Shown here: positions 31,539 to 56,322 of the stretch, piece after piece
Layout: each line of letters starts with the position of its first letter
Numbering within the stretch: position 1 is the stretch's first letter
Assembly (NCBI GenBank): GCA_017744365.1
Contig: JAGIBL010000001.1
Span: forward strand, 310,001 to 374,000
Reading direction: 5' to 3'
Origin: Nocardioidaceae bacterium
GTDB lineage: Bacteria > Actinomycetota > Actinomycetes > Propionibacteriales > Nocardioidaceae
DNA length: 64,000 bases
The notes under the pieces: generated by a model
Told to the model about the DNA's origin: nothing
Databases searched by the model: none
Seen by the model: only the letters and a program-made list of their open reading frames with translations
Program-made: the position numbers and the translations under genes

Positions 31539-32390
31539 TCAGGGGTGGAGGAGGCGGGCCAGCTCCTCGACGCCTTGCACAAGCCTGGTGCCCGGGCGCG
31601 CCCACGAGGCGTTCGCGTCCACCGCGTGCACCCGTACGCCGGCGAGTCCGTGCTCGGCCAGGGTCGGGCGCAGGGCATCGGCGAGGGCGGTGGCGCCAGC
31701 GAGGTCGTAGCCGCACGGGCCGACCACGATCACGTCCGGCGAGGCGGCGGCGATCGCGTCCCAGGTGACCCGGCGGGACTTCTCGCCGGGCGTCCCGAGC
31801 AGCGGCTCGCCGCCGGCGAGCTCGATCATCTCGGGCACCCAGTGACCGGGTGCGAACGGCGGCTCGGTCCACTCCAGGAACATCACCCGCGGTCGCGTCC
31901 GGCCGGCGACGGTATCCGCGACCGCGGACAGCCGGGCCCGCTGGGAGGCCACGATCGCCGCGGCCTGCTCGGCGCGACCCGTCCGCTCGCCGAGCGTCAC
32001 GATCGAGCCCAGCACCTCGTCCAGGGTGTGCGGGTCGATGGTGAGCACCTCGGCCGTGCAGCCCAGGTGGGCCAGGGCGTCGTCGACGACGGAGACGTCC
32101 ACCGCGCAGACCGCGCACAGGTCCTGGGTCACGACCAGGTCCGCGTCGAGCCCGGCCAGCGCACCCTCGTCGAGGCGGTAGAGGTCCTCGCCCCGGGACA
32201 TCGCCTGCACGACGTACGCGTCGATCTCGGCGGGCGTCAGCCCGTCGGGCATCGCGGAGGTCGAGACGATCCGCCGCTCGCGCGCCTCGGCGGGGAAGTC
32301 GCACTCGAAGGTCACCCCGACCACGTCGTCGCCGGCCCCGACCGCGAACAGGATCTCGGTGGTCGACGGGAGCAGGCTGACGATGCGCAC
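31539..32390 (-). CDS. Cobalamin-binding (BtuF-like) periplasmic-fold protein without signal peptide
   Basis: 283 residues. Helical-backbone metal-receptor fold: R-I-V-S-L-L-P-S-T-T-E-I-L-F-A-V-G at the very N-terminus, V-T-Q-D-L-C-A-V-C-A-V, and the long central helix. Other BtuF proteins are exported ABC-transporter components; this one begins with the mature fold and lacks both signal peptide and lipobox, so it appears cytoplasmic, as known for a subgroup of actinobacterial 'cobalamin-binding' proteins. No btuC/btuD homologues are adjacent. GTG 32390 is leaderless, with TAGGGT on the minus strand six bases upstream. Confidence 0.78.
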   Translation of the reverse strand: MRIVSLLPSTTEILFAVGAGDDVVGVTFECDFPAEARERRIVSTSAMPDGLTPAEIDAYVVQAMSRGEDLYRLDEGALAGLDADLVVTQDLCAVCAVDVSVVDDALAHLGCTAEVLTIDPHTLDEVLGSIVTLGERTGRAEQAAAIVASQRARLSAVADTVAGRTRPRVMFLEWTEPPFAPGHWVPEMIELAGGEPLLGTPGEKSRRVTWDAIAAASPDVIVVGPCGYDLAGATALADALRPTLAEHGLAGVRVHAVDANASWARPGTRLVQGVEELARLLHP

Positions 32391-32393
32391 ACC

Positions 32394-32409
32394 CTCACCC
32401 TAGGGTGAG
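32394..32409. promoter_or_regulatory. Palindromic bidirectional leaderless promoter
   Basis: CTCACCCTAGGGTGAG, a perfect 16-bp palindrome. Its centre supplies TAGGGT on the plus strand (32401-32406, seven bases before ATG 32414) and TAGGGT on the minus strand (32402-32397, six bases before GTG 32390). Both -10 hexamers share the central TA, and the two start codons are 23 bp apart. The outer arms (AGGGTGAG) also resemble weak ribosome binding sites. Confidence 0.6.
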
Positions 32410-32413
32410 TGAC

Positions 32414-33874
32414 ATGAGCGAGCAGAAGGTCCTGGACGCGGTCCCGAAGCAGCTGCTGATCGGCGGTGAGTGGCGCGACGCGAGCGGGGGAGCGAGGTTC
32501 GCCGTCGAGGATCCCGCCACCGGCAAGGCGCTCTGCGAGATCGCCGATGCCACCCCCGAGGACGCGGTCGCCGCGCTCGACGCTGCCGTCGCGGCCCAGG
32601 CCGGCTGGGCGGCCACTCCGCCGAACGAACGCTCCGAGATCCTCTACCGGGCCTTCCAGCTGCTCAACGAGCGCGCCGACGACCTGGCCCTGCTGATGAC
32701 CCTGGAGATGGGGAAGTCGGTGGCCGAGTCGAAGGGCGAGATCGCCTACGCGGCCGAGTTCTTCCGCTGGTTCTCGGGCGAGGCGCTGCGGCTGGACGGC
32801 TACTACAAGACCGCCGGCAACGGGCAGAGCCGGGTGCTGGTGATGCGCCAGCCGGTCGGCCCCTGCTACTTCATCACGCCCTGGAACTTCCCGAACGCGA
32901 TGGGCACCCGCAAGATCGGCCCGGCCATCGCCGCCGGCTGCACGATGGTGGTCAAGCCCGCCCAGCAGACGCCGCTGTCGATGCTCGCGCTGGCGCGCCT
33001 CCTGGAGGAGTGCGGGCTGCCGAAGGGGGTGCTCAACGTGGTCACCTCGACCAGCTCGAGCGCGGTCTCCAAGCCGATCATCAGCGACCCGCGGTTGCGC
33101 AAGCTCTCCTTCACCGGGTCGACCGAGGTCGGCCGGACGCTGATCGCGCAGGCCGCCGACCAGGTGCTCAAGGTCTCCATGGAGCTGGGCGGGAACGCGC
33201 CGTTCCTGGTCTTCGCCGACGCGGACCTGGACGCCGCGGTCGAGGGCGCGATGCTGGCGAAGATGCGCAACGTCGGCGAGGCGTGCACCTCGGCGAACCG
33301 GTTCCACGTGCACGAGTCGGTGGCCGCCGAGTTCGCCGAGAAGCTGGCCGCGCGGATGGGCGCGCTGACGGTCGGCCGCGGCACCGAGGACGGTGTCCAG
33401 GTGGGCCCTCTCATCGACGCGGCCCAGCAGGGCAAGGTCGCCGAGCTCGTCGACGACGCGGTCGCCCGCGGCGCCTCGGTGGTGACCGGCGGCAGCAAGG
33501 GCGACGGGCCCGGGTACTTCTTCGCCCCGACCGTGCTCACCGGTGTCACCGAGGACGCCCGGGTGCTGCACGAGGAGATCTTCGGGCCGGTGGCGCCGAT
33601 CGCCACGTTCTCCACCGACGAGGAGGCGATCGCGGCGGCAAACCGGACCGAGTACGGCCTGGTCGCCTACGTGTTCACCCGCGATCTGCAGCGGGCGTTC
33701 AAGGTCTGCGAGGCGCTGGAGACCGGGATGATCGGGCTCAACCAGGGCATGGTCTCCAACGCGGGCGCGCCCTTCGGCGGCGTCAAGCAGTCCGGGACCG
33801 GGCGCGAGGGCGGCAACGAGGGCATCGCGGAGTACCTGGAGACCAAGTACGTCGCGATGAACCTCCCGGCATGA
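32414..33874 (+). CDS. gabD: NAD(P)-dependent succinate-semialdehyde dehydrogenase family protein
   Basis: 486 residues from ATG 32414. Aldehyde dehydrogenase fold: F-I-T-P-W-N-F-P (NAD site), M-E-L-G-G-N-A-P (catalytic Glu, about 257), N-V-G-E-A-C-T-S-A-N-R (catalytic Cys, about 289) and E-E-I-F-G-P-V. The lengths and motifs fit the GabD2/SSADH subgroup, which converts succinate semialdehyde to succinate. GTG 32405 is an alternative start but would remove the leaderless spacing. Coupled by ATGA to the Nudix gene. Confidence 0.85.
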   Translation: MSEQKVLDAVPKQLLIGGEWRDASGGARFAVEDPATGKALCEIADATPEDAVAALDAAVAAQAGWAATPPNERSEILYRAFQLLNERADDLALLMTLEMGKSVAESKGEIAYAAEFFRWFSGEALRLDGYYKTAGNGQSRVLVMRQPVGPCYFITPWNFPNAMGTRKIGPAIAAGCTMVVKPAQQTPLSMLALARLLEECGLPKGVLNVVTSTSSSAVSKPIISDPRLRKLSFTGSTEVGRTLIAQAADQVLKVSMELGGNAPFLVFADADLDAAVEGAMLAKMRNVGEACTSANRFHVHESVAAEFAEKLAARMGALTVGRGTEDGVQVGPLIDAAQQGKVAELVDDAVARGASVVTGGSKGDGPGYFFAPTVLTGVTEDARVLHEEIFGPVAPIATFSTDEEAIAAANRTEYGLVAYVFTRDLQRAFKVCEALETGMIGLNQGMVSNAGAPFGGVKQSGTGREGGNEGIAEYLETKYVAMNLPA

Positions 33875-34413
33875 CCGACGAGCTGGTCGCCCTCGTCGAC
33901 CCCGAGGGCCGCGTCATCGGGAACGCACCGCGCTCCGTCGTACGGCGGGACAACCTGCTGCACTCCGCCACCGCCGTGCTGGTGCGCGACCCGGCCGGGC
34001 GGATCTACGTGCACCAGCGCAGCGACACCAAGGACTGGGCACCCGGGCAGTGGGACGCGGCCGCCGGCGGCGTGATCGTGGTCGGCGAGGTGCCCGACTC
34101 CTCCGCGGTGCGCGAGCTGGCCGAGGAGCTCGGCGTCACCGGCGTCGAGCCCCGTCCGCTCGGACGGCACCTCTACGAGGACGACGGCACCCGCTGCTTC
34201 GAGTACGCCTACGAGGTCGTCTGGGACGGCGACATCATCCACCAGCCCGACGAGGTCGCCGAGGGTCGCTGGGCCACCCTGGCCGAGCTGGCCGCGCTCC
34301 TGGCCGACGGCACCCCGTTCGTGCCGGACACGCGGCAGCTGCTGGGGCTGCTGGCGGCGCAGGGGATCGGGGATTACGCGGAGCTCAGCGGTCCGAGCCC
34401 GAAGAGCCGGTGA
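33871..34413 (+). CDS. Nudix hydrolase
   Basis: 180 residues. Nudix box G-G-V-I-V-V-G-E-V-P-D-S-S-A-V-R-E-L-A-E-E-L-G-V (about 60-83) fits G-x5-E-x7-R-E-U-x-E-E-x-G-U. The N-terminal V-D-P-E-G-R-V-I-G and Y-V-H-Q-R-S-D-T-K-D-W-A-P-G-Q-W-D resemble YfcD/isopentenyl-diphosphate-isomerase-like Nudix proteins, so a diphosphate substrate such as a nucleoside diphosphate derivative is likely. ATG 33871 overlaps the upstream stop by four bases. The 3' end overlaps the convergent TPR gene by 29 bp. Confidence 0.85.
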   Translation: MTDELVALVDPEGRVIGNAPRSVVRRDNLLHSATAVLVRDPAGRIYVHQRSDTKDWAPGQWDAAAGGVIVVGEVPDSSAVRELAEELGVTGVEPRPLGRHLYEDDGTRCFEYAYEVVWDGDIIHQPDEVAEGRWATLAELAALLADGTPFVPDTRQLLGLLAAQGIGDYAELSGPSPKSR

Positions 34414-51849: not shown

Positions 51850-54800
51850 GTGAGTACTGGCGGGCGTCTGCGTGCCCCTCTCGTGGGGTGCACATTGATT
51901 CTGTTCTGCACATTGATCCCCCTGACCGTGGCGACAGGAACACCGGTGAGTGCCGTCGCAGGCACCGGAGGAGCTGAGGATCCTGGATCGGACCACCCGG
52001 AGCTCCTGGATGACAGGACGACCACGACCAGCCAGACCTTCCAGAATCCTGATGGCACGCTGACAACCGAGTTCGCGCCGGGGCCTGTTCGGTACCGGGA
52101 CGACGCTGGAACGTGGCAGGACATCGACAACACGCTGGTACACCGGCACGGCCGTTGGGTGCCCAAGTCGTCACCGCTGGATCTGGAGTTCTCCGACGGG
52201 GGCGCCGAGGCGTTCGCGGATCTGGAGCGCGTCGGAGACGACTCCGTTGCCCTGAGCTGGCCGTCGACCTTGCCTGAACCTGAGGTGAAGGGCGCGACCT
52301 TGACCTACAAGAACGCGCTGTCCGGTGGTGACCTTGTGGTGACCGCGCTGTCGACCGGATTCACCCACTCGGTGGTGCTGAACGAGCGTCCTGAACCAGG
52401 GGAGAATGTCGCGATCCCGATCCCGGTCGCGCTGGAAGGCACCCACCTGGCTGAGACGACGGGCGGTGGGTTGAGGATCACCTCGCCGCAGGACAAGCCC
52501 GTTCAGGCGCCGCCGCCGCTGATGTGGGATGCAGCCGAGGACGCGACCGGGCTGCCTGAGGAGACCCATCCAGTCGACGTCCGGGTCGAAGGGGCGTCGC
52601 CGAGTGAGGTCGACGCCGACGCAACCCTGATCCTCACGCCGGATCCGGCAGTTCTGTCGGACCCAGGAACGGAGTATCCGGTCACGATCGATCCGACCTA
52701 CACGATCTCGACGCCCTGGTACGACGTGTTCGTCAACAACGGGTCGTACACCGACGCCCTGACGACCAATGCGTGGGACACCTTCAGGACCGGAACCCAG
52801 AACTCAGGGACCAACGTGACGCGCTCGTTCCTGAAGTTCCCGGCGATCAACCAGGCCACTCTCGACTCGTGGGACATCCAGTCTGCGACCGTGCAGGCTC
52901 GCGTGGTCGGCTCCCCGTCGTGCACGAACGGCACGACGATCGCCTATCCCATCACCGAGGACTGGACCGTCGGTGGGTCGAATGCGGCCCTCAAACTGAC
53001 CTGGGCCAACCAACCCAGTGTCGACACGTCCTATGTGAACAGCCCGCAGCAGTACGTCCCGTACGGCGGTCCCAGCGGCTCCTCGTGCACGGCCCACGGC
53101 TGGTACGGCTGGAACGTCACTCCGGGTGTGAAGGACTGGCGCACGGGGGGAGACCACGCCGGAAAGCAGTTCGGGTTCCGCCTCCAGGCCGCGACAGAAA
53201 CCGCCAACGGCAGCTTCCGCGAGTACCGTTCCCGCGACGGGTCGCCCTCTGACAGCACCTACCATCCGAAGCTGGTCATCACGTACAACAGCTACCCGAA
53301 CACGCCTACTGGCCTGTCGATGACCCCGTACTTGAACGGATACGCAGGCTCGACGACGCCGACACTCTCGGCAACTGTGATCGACCCCGACGGCGGCGCC
53401 GTTCACGCCAAGTTCGATGTCTACTCGGGCGCGAACGTGGTCTGGTCCGGTTCAGGCTCGTCCGTGACGAGCGGAGGCACGTCAACGGCACAGGTGCCCG
53501 CCGGCACGCTGGTCAACGGATCGGCGTACACCCTGCGCGCCTACGCGAGCGACGGTTCGCTGGTGAGTGGCCAGAACAGCACCTCGAGTGGCTACGTTCC
53601 GGTGCCGTTCACCGTCGACACTACGGCCTTGGGCGACGGCGGCTGGCTCGAGCCAGAGGCAAGCGGCCCGCTCGCGACCTCCTACGGCGTGGACACCTAC
53701 GAGCTCGAGGACCTGCAAGCCCTGGCCGCGGACGAGGGAGTGTCTGTCCAGGAAGCCGTCGACAAGTACGGCTGGGCGGGAGATCTCGCCGATGCGGCGC
53801 AGGTCATCGCCACCGATGATCCGTTGAGCTTCGCCTTCGCCGAGCTCTCAGACGACGCCCCCGGAGCCACGATCCATTTCAAGGGCTCTGTCCCGGCCTC
53901 TGCCAATGAGGCCGTGGCTGGTCTTTCCGGCCCGGTGGAACTCTTGGCAGACGCCCCGTACACCGAAGCCGAACAGCAGCAGATCATCGATACCGTGACC
54001 GACTCGCTCGACAGCCAACTGACCGCGAACGGCAATGCCTTCACCGTCGAGCTCGATCCGCACACCGGTGACGTGTCGGCTGCGATCTCCACGGGTGAGG
54101 TCGGACCTTCTCTCAACTCAAACGGCGCTCATGAGTCCGTGTCGAGGGTCGACGCCGAGACACCGTCATCCACCGAATTGGAAGACACTGCCGAGGCCGC
54201 CGTAACCCAGGAGCTCCCGTCGATCACGACCCCTGCCGTCATTGTCACCTTCATCGACGCACCGGGCGGAGCGACCAACACGTTGCGCGGCGGCGTCGTG
54301 CTCGCAGAGGAAGACTATGAAGCCAACAAGCTGTATCGGTGCACCTCTGGCTTTCCGGCGAAGGAGGACGGTTCCGACCATGGGGGCTTGCTCAGCGCGC
54401 GGCACTGCAAGAACGACATGATGTGGTATGCGTACGGGCAGTCGGGGCAGCGAGCGGTGCTCGACACGGCCAGCCTGTTCCTGGACAAGGACCACGGAGA
54501 CATCCAGTATCAGCGCAGCCTCGGAGAGTCCGTCGGCAAGAGCTTCTACTACTTGCCGGGCAAGACACGCGCGATTCTGGGCGTCAAGAAGCCCTACGTC
54601 GGGATGCCGATCTGCATGTTCGGACGCTCTTCAAAGGGCTATCGGGACGGCAAACGCACCTGCACCAAGATCAAGAACCTGAACCAGAGCGGGCGCATGT
54701 ATGTCGATGGGGAGAAATGGATCGTCAAGGGCATGGGCGAGACCCACGGGCAGTGGTCGATACCGGGCGACTCGGGAGGTCCCTGGTTCAGCGGCGGGTA

Positions 54801-54924
54801 TGCGGTAGGCATCGTGTCCGGCAACATGCCGTGCGGCTTCCTGTGGAAGAGCACGTGTGACACCTTCACGCCACTTCAGGGGAACGAAGGGCGAGGGAGC
54901 TTTGATGTCCACGTCTGGTACTGA
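51850..54924 (+). CDS. Secreted DNRLRE protein with C-terminal trypsin-like serine protease
   Basis: 1024 residues. Signal peptide (C-T-L-I-L-F-C-T-L-I-P-L-T-V) then an N-terminal region with Y-P-V-T-I-D-P-T-Y and a DNRLRE-type beta domain (about 280-480) such as precedes Rhs-type repeats, an FN3-like stretch (P-T-L-S-A-T-V-I-D-P-D-G-G), a region resembling an S1 propeptide (about 620-760), and a trypsin-like protease (about 820-1024) with catalytic His 852 (S-A-R-H-C), Asp 884 (H-G-D-I) and Ser 975 (G-D-S-G-G). GC and codon use are visibly lower than in the surroundings. GTG 51850 has GAGGAAGG upstream. I know no described protein with this combination. Confidence 0.78.
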   Translation: MSTGGRLRAPLVGCTLILFCTLIPLTVATGTPVSAVAGTGGAEDPGSDHPELLDDRTTTTSQTFQNPDGTLTTEFAPGPVRYRDDAGTWQDIDNTLVHRHGRWVPKSSPLDLEFSDGGAEAFADLERVGDDSVALSWPSTLPEPEVKGATLTYKNALSGGDLVVTALSTGFTHSVVLNERPEPGENVAIPIPVALEGTHLAETTGGGLRITSPQDKPVQAPPPLMWDAAEDATGLPEETHPVDVRVEGASPSEVDADATLILTPDPAVLSDPGTEYPVTIDPTYTISTPWYDVFVNNGSYTDALTTNAWDTFRTGTQNSGTNVTRSFLKFPAINQATLDSWDIQSATVQARVVGSPSCTNGTTIAYPITEDWTVGGSNAALKLTWANQPSVDTSYVNSPQQYVPYGGPSGSSCTAHGWYGWNVTPGVKDWRTGGDHAGKQFGFRLQAATETANGSFREYRSRDGSPSDSTYHPKLVITYNSYPNTPTGLSMTPYLNGYAGSTTPTLSATVIDPDGGAVHAKFDVYSGANVVWSGSGSSVTSGGTSTAQVPAGTLVNGSAYTLRAYASDGSLVSGQNSTSSGYVPVPFTVDTTALGDGGWLEPEASGPLATSYGVDTYELEDLQALAADEGVSVQEAVDKYGWAGDLADAAQVIATDDPLSFAFAELSDDAPGATIHFKGSVPASANEAVAGLSGPVELLADAPYTEAEQQQIIDTVTDSLDSQLTANGNAFTVELDPHTGDVSAAISTGEVGPSLNSNGAHESVSRVDAETPSSTELEDTAEAAVTQELPSITTPAVIVTFIDAPGGATNTLRGGVVLAEEDYEANKLYRCTSGFPAKEDGSDHGGLLSARHCKNDMMWYAYGQSGQRAVLDTASLFLDKDHGDIQYQRSLGESVGKSFYYLPGKTRAILGVKKPYVGMPICMFGRSSKGYRDGKRTCTKIKNLNQSGRMYVDGEKWIVKGMGETHGQWSIPGDSGGPWFSGGYAVGIVSGNMPCGFLWKSTCDTFTPLQGNEGRGSFDVHVWY

Positions 54925-55420
54925 GTCAGGTCCCTCCCGACGCCGGTGGCGGCGCGGAAGGCTCGCCGTCGTGTGCACGGTCGCCGCCCTCGCCGTCGTC
55001 GGAGGGACGCTCCTCTGGAGCCGTGCAGCCACTCGCCCCAGTGTGGTTCGGCGAGATGCCGTCGTCGCAGTCGTCGACGGACGACACTTCCGCTTCGGCC
55101 CAGGAACCGCCGAGGTCGGTGTGGGGGGCGGCGGGGTGATCCGGTTGGTGGCAGGGCGGTGCTTCGGCGTGGGCCTGGAAGGCAGTGACATGTCGACTGT
55201 GGTGGTCTGGCCTCGGGGCTCGAAGCTTGTCGCCATCGACGGAGGTCTCAGGATCAAGGTTCCGCACGCAGGCAGTTTCGGTGTGGGCGACCAGGTCGAG
55301 TTCGGCGTGACCTTCGGCAAGGAACGCGACGTCTCGAACCTCGCCCTTCCGAAGGACTGCAGGGCGACGAACGCAGTGGTCGTGGAGGATCCACACCTGG
55401 TGAATCGCCTCCAGGACTGA
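54905..55420 (+). CDS. Single-span membrane protein coupled to the DNRLRE protease
   Basis: 171 residues. ATG 54905 overlaps the protease 3' end by 20 bp; GAGGGAG lies upstream. Arg-rich N-terminus, one transmembrane helix (about 20-38, A-V-V-C-T-V-A-A-L-A-V-V-G-G-T-L-L), then a beta-rich exported domain with two cysteines (A-G-R-C and K-D-C-R). Lower GC like its neighbour. Because the two are translationally linked, it may be an inhibitor, anchor or maturation partner of the protease. No family recognised. Confidence 0.65.
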   Translation: MSTSGTESGPSRRRWRRGRLAVVCTVAALAVVGGTLLWSRAATRPSVVRRDAVVAVVDGRHFRFGPGTAEVGVGGGGVIRLVAGRCFGVGLEGSDMSTVVVWPRGSKLVAIDGGLRIKVPHAGSFGVGDQVEFGVTFGKERDVSNLALPKDCRATNAVVVEDPHLVNRLQD

Positions 55421-55443
55421 TGCCGCCGGGAGGTGCCGCGCCG

Positions 55444-55449
55444 TAGCGT
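55444..55449 (+). promoter_or_regulatory. -10 hexamer TAGCGT, leaderless promoter
   Basis: Ends six bases before ATG 55456 of the hydrolase gene. Confidence 0.5.
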
Positions 55450-55455
55450 GGCGGG

Positions 55456-56322
55456 ATGGCGCTGACCCTCCCCGGCGGACGCACCCTGGACCTGCGTGTC
55501 AGCGGGCCCGAGGACGGCGTCCCGTTCGTCTTCCACCACGGCACTCCTGGCTCGGTGACGCCGGTCCGGCTCGTCGAGCGCGCGGTGCACGCCGCGGGCC
55601 TGAGGCTGGTCACGTTCTCGCGTCCCGGCTACGGCGCCTCCAGCAGGCGGGCGGGGCGGAGCGTGGCCGACGACGCCGCCGACGTGGCCGCGATCCTCGA
55701 CGACCTCGGTGCCGAGCGGTGCGTGACCGCGGGCTGGTCCGGTGGCGGGCCGCACGCGCTCGCGACCGCGGTGGCGCTGCCGGACCGGGTGGCCGGGGTC
55801 GCGACGATCGCCGGCGCGGCGCCGTACGGGGTCGAGGGAGTCGACTTCCTCGACGGGATGGGCGAGCAGAACGTCGAGGAGTTCGGCACGGCGATCGCCG
55901 GCGAGGAGGACCTGCGCGTCTTCCTGGACCGCGAGGCCGTCGAGCTGCGCGACGTGGACGCAGCCGGGATCGTGGCGGCGCTGTCCACGCTGCTGCCCGA
56001 CTCGGACCGGGCCGTGCTCACCGACGAGTACGGCGAGGACCTGGCCGCGAACCTGCGCGAGGGGATCCGCCTGGGCGTGGACGGCTGGGTCGACGACGAC
56101 CTCGCCTTCGTGACGCCATGGGGCTTCGACCTGGACGCGCTGGCGGTCCCGGCCTTCTGCTGGCAGGGGGAGGAGGACCTGATGGTGCCGCCGGCCCACG
56201 GTCGCTGGCTGGCCGCACACGTGCCCGGGGCCGTCCCCCACCTGCTCCCCGGCGAGGGGCACCTGTCGGTCGGGGTGGGCCGGATCGAGGAGATCGTCGG
56301 CGAGCTGGCGGCCACGCTCTGA
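55456..56322 (+). CDS. Alpha/beta-hydrolase
   Basis: 288 residues. Oxyanion region F-H-H-G-T-P-G-S, nucleophile elbow A-G-W-S-G-G-G-P (Ser about 96), acidic residue in G-E-E-D-L-M-V and catalytic His in G-E-G-H-L-S. No signal peptide, so cytoplasmic. Substrate unknown. Leaderless start at ATG 55456. Confidence 0.88.

Follow-up and report, generated by a model that had tools for sequence, protein, structure and literature searches.

In a 64,000-nucleotide stretch of a Nocardioidaceae genome (hereafter the window), the 23-bp gap between a BtuF-like gene and a divergent SSADH-like gene quite probably constitutes a shared bidirectional promoter of the 23-bp-spacing type, which would drive two leaderless genes and in which the perfect palindromy appears to be incidental. 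The gap contains the palindrome CTCACCCTAGGGTGAG, within which two TAGGGT hexamers on opposite strands overlap at a common TA (Table 1). A previous sequence-only reading had described the palindrome, the two hexamers with their shared TA, the spacings to both start codons and the length of the gap, and all of these are confirmed here.

Table 1. Coordinates of the features discussed (window numbering, except for the last entry)
Feature	Coordinates	Strand	Remark
Perfect 16-bp palindrome CTCACCCTAGGGTGAG	32394..32409	no strand	symmetry incomplete in relatives
TAGGGT, putative –10 box of SSADH-like gene	32401..32406	+	7 bases 5' of ATG 32414
TAGGGT, putative –10 box of BtuF-like gene	32397..32402	-	6 bases 5' of GTG 32390
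TA centre common to both –10 boxes	32401..32402	no strand	9/9 SSADH loci
Whole intergenic region, 23 bp between start codons	32391..32413	no strand	
BtuF-like periplasmic-binding-protein gene	31539..32390	-	PF01497, GTG start
SSADH-like aldehyde dehydrogenase gene	32414..33874	+	PF00171, ATG start
CTGACG, weak –35-like hexamer, doubtful	32377..32382	+	in BtuF-like CDS, 18 bases before plus –10 box
GH15/trehalase-like and CinA-domain divergent pair	L122:5137-5160 = G000:C7:419137-419160		16-bp CTAG-centred palindrome CTGACACTAGTGTCAG, shared-TA form

Both start codons are credible, since alignments with relatives begin at residue 1 of the BtuF-like protein in 84 of 91 distinct loci, and at residues 1–3 of the SSADH-like protein in the nine loci with an adjacent SSADH. 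The two codons lie 24 bp apart, and 23–24 bp apart in relatives with near starts. The BtuF-like protein matches its Pfam family yet stays far below the NCBIfam cut-offs, and the SSADH-like protein scores 577.9 bits against TIGR01780, below the cut-off of 646.35, with SSADH as the nearest subfamily. A Shine-Dalgarno sequence is not evident by eye on the minus side, which serves the BtuF-like gene; the plus side has GGTGA (32404-32408) inside the palindrome, ending five bases before the SSADH ATG.

The genome carries a sharp signal of the leaderless type. Genome-wide, TANNNT followed after 6–7 bases by ATG occurs 513 times, by comparison with 109 times for the reversed pattern. Within 1.264 Mb, TANNNT precedes coding-like ATG codons 67 times at 6 bases, 63 times at 7 and 16 times at 8, and 0–8 times at any other distance from 0 to 30; before coding-like GTG codons, the counts are 79 at 6 bases, 41 at 7 and 1–14 elsewhere. 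Coding-like starts were here defined by a simple filter (60 open codons plus codon-position G+C) rather than by a gene finder. TAGGGT is the commonest hexamer among the leaderless-type sites (31/250), at which no –35 enrichment was seen. Judged by these counts, the genome appears to use leaderless –10 boxes, and because TANNNT piles up 6–7 bases before starts, each half of the palindrome may be interpreted as the –10 box of a leaderless gene. Divergent coding-like starts at most 59 bp apart form 4,974 pairs, a number in which alternative starts of one gene count separately; 22 of these pairs carry both –10 boxes, as against 3 for a control motif. Four of these 22 (1.264 Mb), the BtuF-like/SSADH pair included, have a 22–24 bp gap with a shared TA.

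Perfect palindromes of 16 bp are no rarity in themselves. In 1,264,000 bases of the genome there are 93, or about one per 14 kb; three Markov controls contain 80, 77 and 67, and six of the 93 fall in the window. The unusual part is the CTAG centre, which is found in just two of the 93 (342394 and 419141 of contig C7), each of which is flanked at –10 spacing by a divergent pair of coding-like start codons. In the window, CTCACCCTAGGGTGAG has a single match at up to three mismatches, with 0.30 expected and at least one in 24 of 100 shuffles. Taken as a raw number, shared-TA sites of the form ANNNTANNNT lying between start codons do not exceed chance (five, versus 8, 2, 3, 4, 4 and 3 in Markov controls and 1 in a reversed control), and the case for ANNNTANNNT against chance therefore rests on the coding filter and on conservation. 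Coding-like frames lie on both sides of four of the five sites in 1.264 Mb, and not of the one site in the reversed control (0/1), the control with which the filter was compared. The arrangement is consequently not singular in this genome, with four such sites in the part examined. The abundance of 16-bp palindromes and the unremarkable raw count would both suit a chance palindrome lying over one or two unrelated promoters without functional sharing; this account is nevertheless highly improbable in view of the A, TA and second T of ANNNTANNNT, which are kept in all nine distinct SSADH-adjacent loci. The outer palindromic part alone may well be due to chance.

This conservation was assessed in the best 80 of 212 relatives, which NCBI assigns to Nocardioides (56), Marmoricola (6), no genus (6) and other genera such as Phycicoccus (12); of 197 genomes drawn later, the 30 best matches supplied loci. 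Removal of duplicates reduced 102 loci to 91 distinct ones, and seven whose alignment started after residue 1 were dropped, leaving 84; six further distinct loci enter the protein tree and the Ser5 counts given below, and not the second-T counts. The BtuF-like gene is present in 22 of 24 genomes of the genus, and SSADH divergently adjoins it in 9 of the 22 best genus loci; Nocardioides marmorisolisilvae and N. marmoriginsengisoli are examples of cultured relatives with this neighbour. Of the 84 usable loci, 68 carry ANNNTA at a distance of 6 or 7 bases before the BtuF-like start, and the other 16 have none at spacings of 5–8. The second T, universal next to SSADH, occurs in 8 of the 59 ANNNTA loci without an adjacent SSADH, and the shared TA is also seen in five loci with other divergent genes (L046, L050, L053, L055 and L077). 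As at the locus itself, opposite-strand –10 boxes sharing bases are thus found in all nine SSADH loci.

The palindrome fares differently, measuring 16, 10 and 4 bp in one SSADH locus each and 2 bp in the remaining six. Comparison of the gap in relatives, which the sequence-only reading had proposed, thus reveals a shared TA centre that is kept and a full symmetry that is lost. Its view of the palindrome as two back-to-back leaderless promoters is supported in silico for what appear to be two –10 boxes of the leaderless type with a common TA, and not for the palindrome as such; the full palindrome was discarded as a functional unit since its symmetry is not conserved. These observations also bear on whether the palindrome could be the operator of a dimeric regulator for one or both genes, as its perfect symmetry and the similar palindrome CTGACACTAGTGTCAG between GH15 and CinA elsewhere in this genome might suggest. 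The outer palindrome letters expected of such an operator are not conserved: the full 16 bp is found in one of nine SSADH and one of 13 GH15/CinA loci, and symmetry extends over 2–4 bp in seven of the former and 2–6 bp in 12 of the latter, the –10 letters being invariant, with the caveat that the 13 GH15/CinA loci were found by those letters and the nine SSADH loci by the minus half only. In addition, the 4.76-Mb genome has just one exact copy of the 16-mer, and Pfam detects no DNA-binding regulator domain in the four neighbouring genes (RIO1, BtuF-like, SSADH and NUDIX). An operator is accordingly a most improbable explanation.

A different division of labour, in which the site serves the BtuF-like gene alone and SSADH is transcribed from farther upstream with a leader, is unlikely, although less so than an operator. 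The GGTGA before the SSADH ATG could be a weak Shine-Dalgarno of such a leader, and in two loci (L003 and L004) the gap is longer and includes a GGGAGG Shine-Dalgarno. These two belong to three SSADH loci in which the ATG sits farther off and the dyad, second T included, is still present, although GGTG cannot be a Shine-Dalgarno there; in the third (L035), the distant start has its own TAGGGT and the first dyad is retained, as judged by eye. Two more SSADH loci read GAGTGG or GGTTGGG, which are poor Shine-Dalgarnos, and the sharpness of the genome-wide TANNNT signal at 6–7 bases likewise argues for a –10 box on the SSADH side. L035 and L010, which share an identical gap, each bear two TAGGGT-containing elements, a pattern that duplication or separation of the dyad might have produced.

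Returning to the shared promoter, its second half was compared with the presence of a near divergent start. The second T is present in 11 of 18 loci with a divergent coding-like start 5–8 bases beyond, versus 6 of 50 loci without one (p 0.00012, kinship ignored), and in 5 of 12 versus 3 of 47 when SSADH loci are excluded (p 0.006, kinship ignored); seven of the 18 near-start loci lack it. After phylogenetic pairing the association is not significant, with 1.6 of 5 starred pairs concordant on average, because the independent pairs on the protein tree are too few. In this tree, built by a quick method from 90 rows (97 distinct loci, 90 usable), the nine SSADH loci do not group in a single clade, as seven non-SSADH loci are nested among them. 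The nesting forks have 82–97% SH-aLRT and the SSADH neighbour changes three times at the fewest, a weakly supported figure. The history may involve one gain with later losses, several gains or simply an imperfect tree. Since the SSADH loci are not one clade, our confidence in the shared promoter was lowered very slightly and that in two of its rivals raised very slightly.

Other shared-TA sites of the same genome provide a second case. At the GH15/CinA pair, ANNNTANNNT is kept in 13 of the 15 adjacent divergent genus loci, with start codons 4–9 bases away on both sides; the survey comprised 24 genus loci, in 16 of which the GH15 gene lay within the fetched stretch and in 15 of which it was adjacent and divergent. 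L184 and L197 are the exceptions: the CinA start of the former is unclear, and in the latter, by eye, the two boxes have parted and each gene keeps its own TANNNT near its start. Spacing on the GH15 side is 8 in 7 of the 13 loci, so that a leader of one or two bases is possible on the GH15 mRNA. A further shared-TA site adjoins an aminopeptidase-like gene (C7:1233714), named by eye from its translation. The ThyA/EamA site (C7:398711) is probably a one-off, as many loci of the genus retain the box on the thyA side and the minus half is not evident by eye; C7:592388, the fifth site, was rejected as two-sided because its minus frame has 17 codons.

Promoters that fire in both directions are an established class, and work by Warman et al. 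from 2021 on bidirectional promoters is said to cover archaea as well. According to the relevant passages of Warman et al. 2026 (PMC12825309), bidirectional promoters can have shared –10 elements, with start spacings of 18, 10 and 23 bp being common; PMC10268837, in part, also treats bidirectional promoters with symmetric –10 elements. The present site resembles this class in that its opposed –10 boxes share bases, and fits the 23-bp type by our arithmetic, since two hexamers sharing TA plus six bases to each start amount to 23 bp. It differs from the class as presented in those passages (PMC12825309) in that both RNAs would be leaderless and the promoter would be the whole intergenic region. 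The same passages state that steric exclusion prevents simultaneous polymerase binding, that basal activity at five E. coli bidirectional promoters is too low for substantial competition, and that strong activation in one direction may repress transcription in the other (PMC12825309). The suggestion that the BtuF-like and SSADH genes are mutually exclusive hence finds no support, exclusion being conceivable if one side were strongly activated.

A close parallel is the divergent pair prpD (Rv1130)/Rv1129c of M. tuberculosis, both of whose mRNAs were mapped as leaderless, in a species with a TANNNT –10 motif and no –35 consensus where closely juxtaposed divergent promoters are called common (PMC3898074, in the passages concerned). 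The likeness extends to divergent neighbours, TANNNT and the lack of a –35 consensus; whether the boxes share bases is not stated in these passages, and both genes are raised in starvation, which does not suggest exclusivity there (PMC3898074). Bidirectional promoters with two leaderless mRNAs were not found among the listed open-access titles and abstract openings, a search that does not establish absence from print. Propionibacterium acnes is an actinobacterium of the same order. Its –10 box is TAnnnT and it has leaderless mRNAs, of which 29% start with GUG; unlike in the genome studied here, a –35 motif, GnTTnG, is reported. The passages of that paper concerned with these features contain no bidirectional promoters (PMC3848588). 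Compared with these systems, the locus appears to represent a known promoter type in conserved and compact form, its twist being the two leaderless genes, and to be a tidy variant rather than a new kind.

We envisage that RNA polymerase, presumably with the housekeeping sigma factor, binds ANNNTANNNT in either orientation, the TA serving both –10 boxes as positions –12/–11. Transcription would begin at or beside each start codon and both mRNAs would be leaderless. The site would hold one polymerase orientation at a time, and initiation is probably rare enough for both genes to be expressed, presumably without strong competition. The BtuF-side box would be the older one, on whose TA the SSADH-side box would have grown within one group of relatives, and exact palindromy would be a local accident. 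A bolder and rather doubtful proposal is that Nocardioidaceae have a selected and stable class of promoters that measure 22–24 bp from start to start and contain one shared TA. The expression ratio of two leaderless genes, neither with any untranslated sequence, would be set by one polymerase-binding site, and divergent genes newly arriving next door would time and again be recruited as a further –10 box grew on a TA already in place. If transcription starts map as predicted, two-way promoters would be recognizable from sequence alone in leaderless-rich actinobacteria, as start-codon spacing gives start-site spacing. The origin and persistence of such promoters, and a possible fixed neighbour ratio through sharing, would then become open to study. 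As a caution for annotation, an operator should not be assumed wherever two divergent genes are separated by a perfect palindrome.

Some observations concern the flanking genes. The Ser5 codon of the BtuF-like gene (window 32376-32378) is AGY in 9/9 SSADH loci and 5/81 others, and TCN in 76/81 loci without an adjacent SSADH, a two-base synonymous switch that tracks the neighbouring gene; the nine SSADH loci are too closely related to count apart, and the switch is thus no proof of selection. The combination AGC plus GTC, which gives CTGAC, is found in 7/9 SSADH loci and 5/81 others. CTGACG was rejected as an SSADH-side –35 element in view of the leaderless-type sites, which lack –35 enrichment, and of the five other AGC loci, all without the second T. 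In the window, the region 52001-56000 has the lowest G+C (0.667) among sixteen 4-kb bins. Downstream of SSADH, the ATG of a NUDIX-domain gene (window 33871-34413, plus strand) overlaps the SSADH stop codon (ATGA), and the two genes may therefore form an operon.
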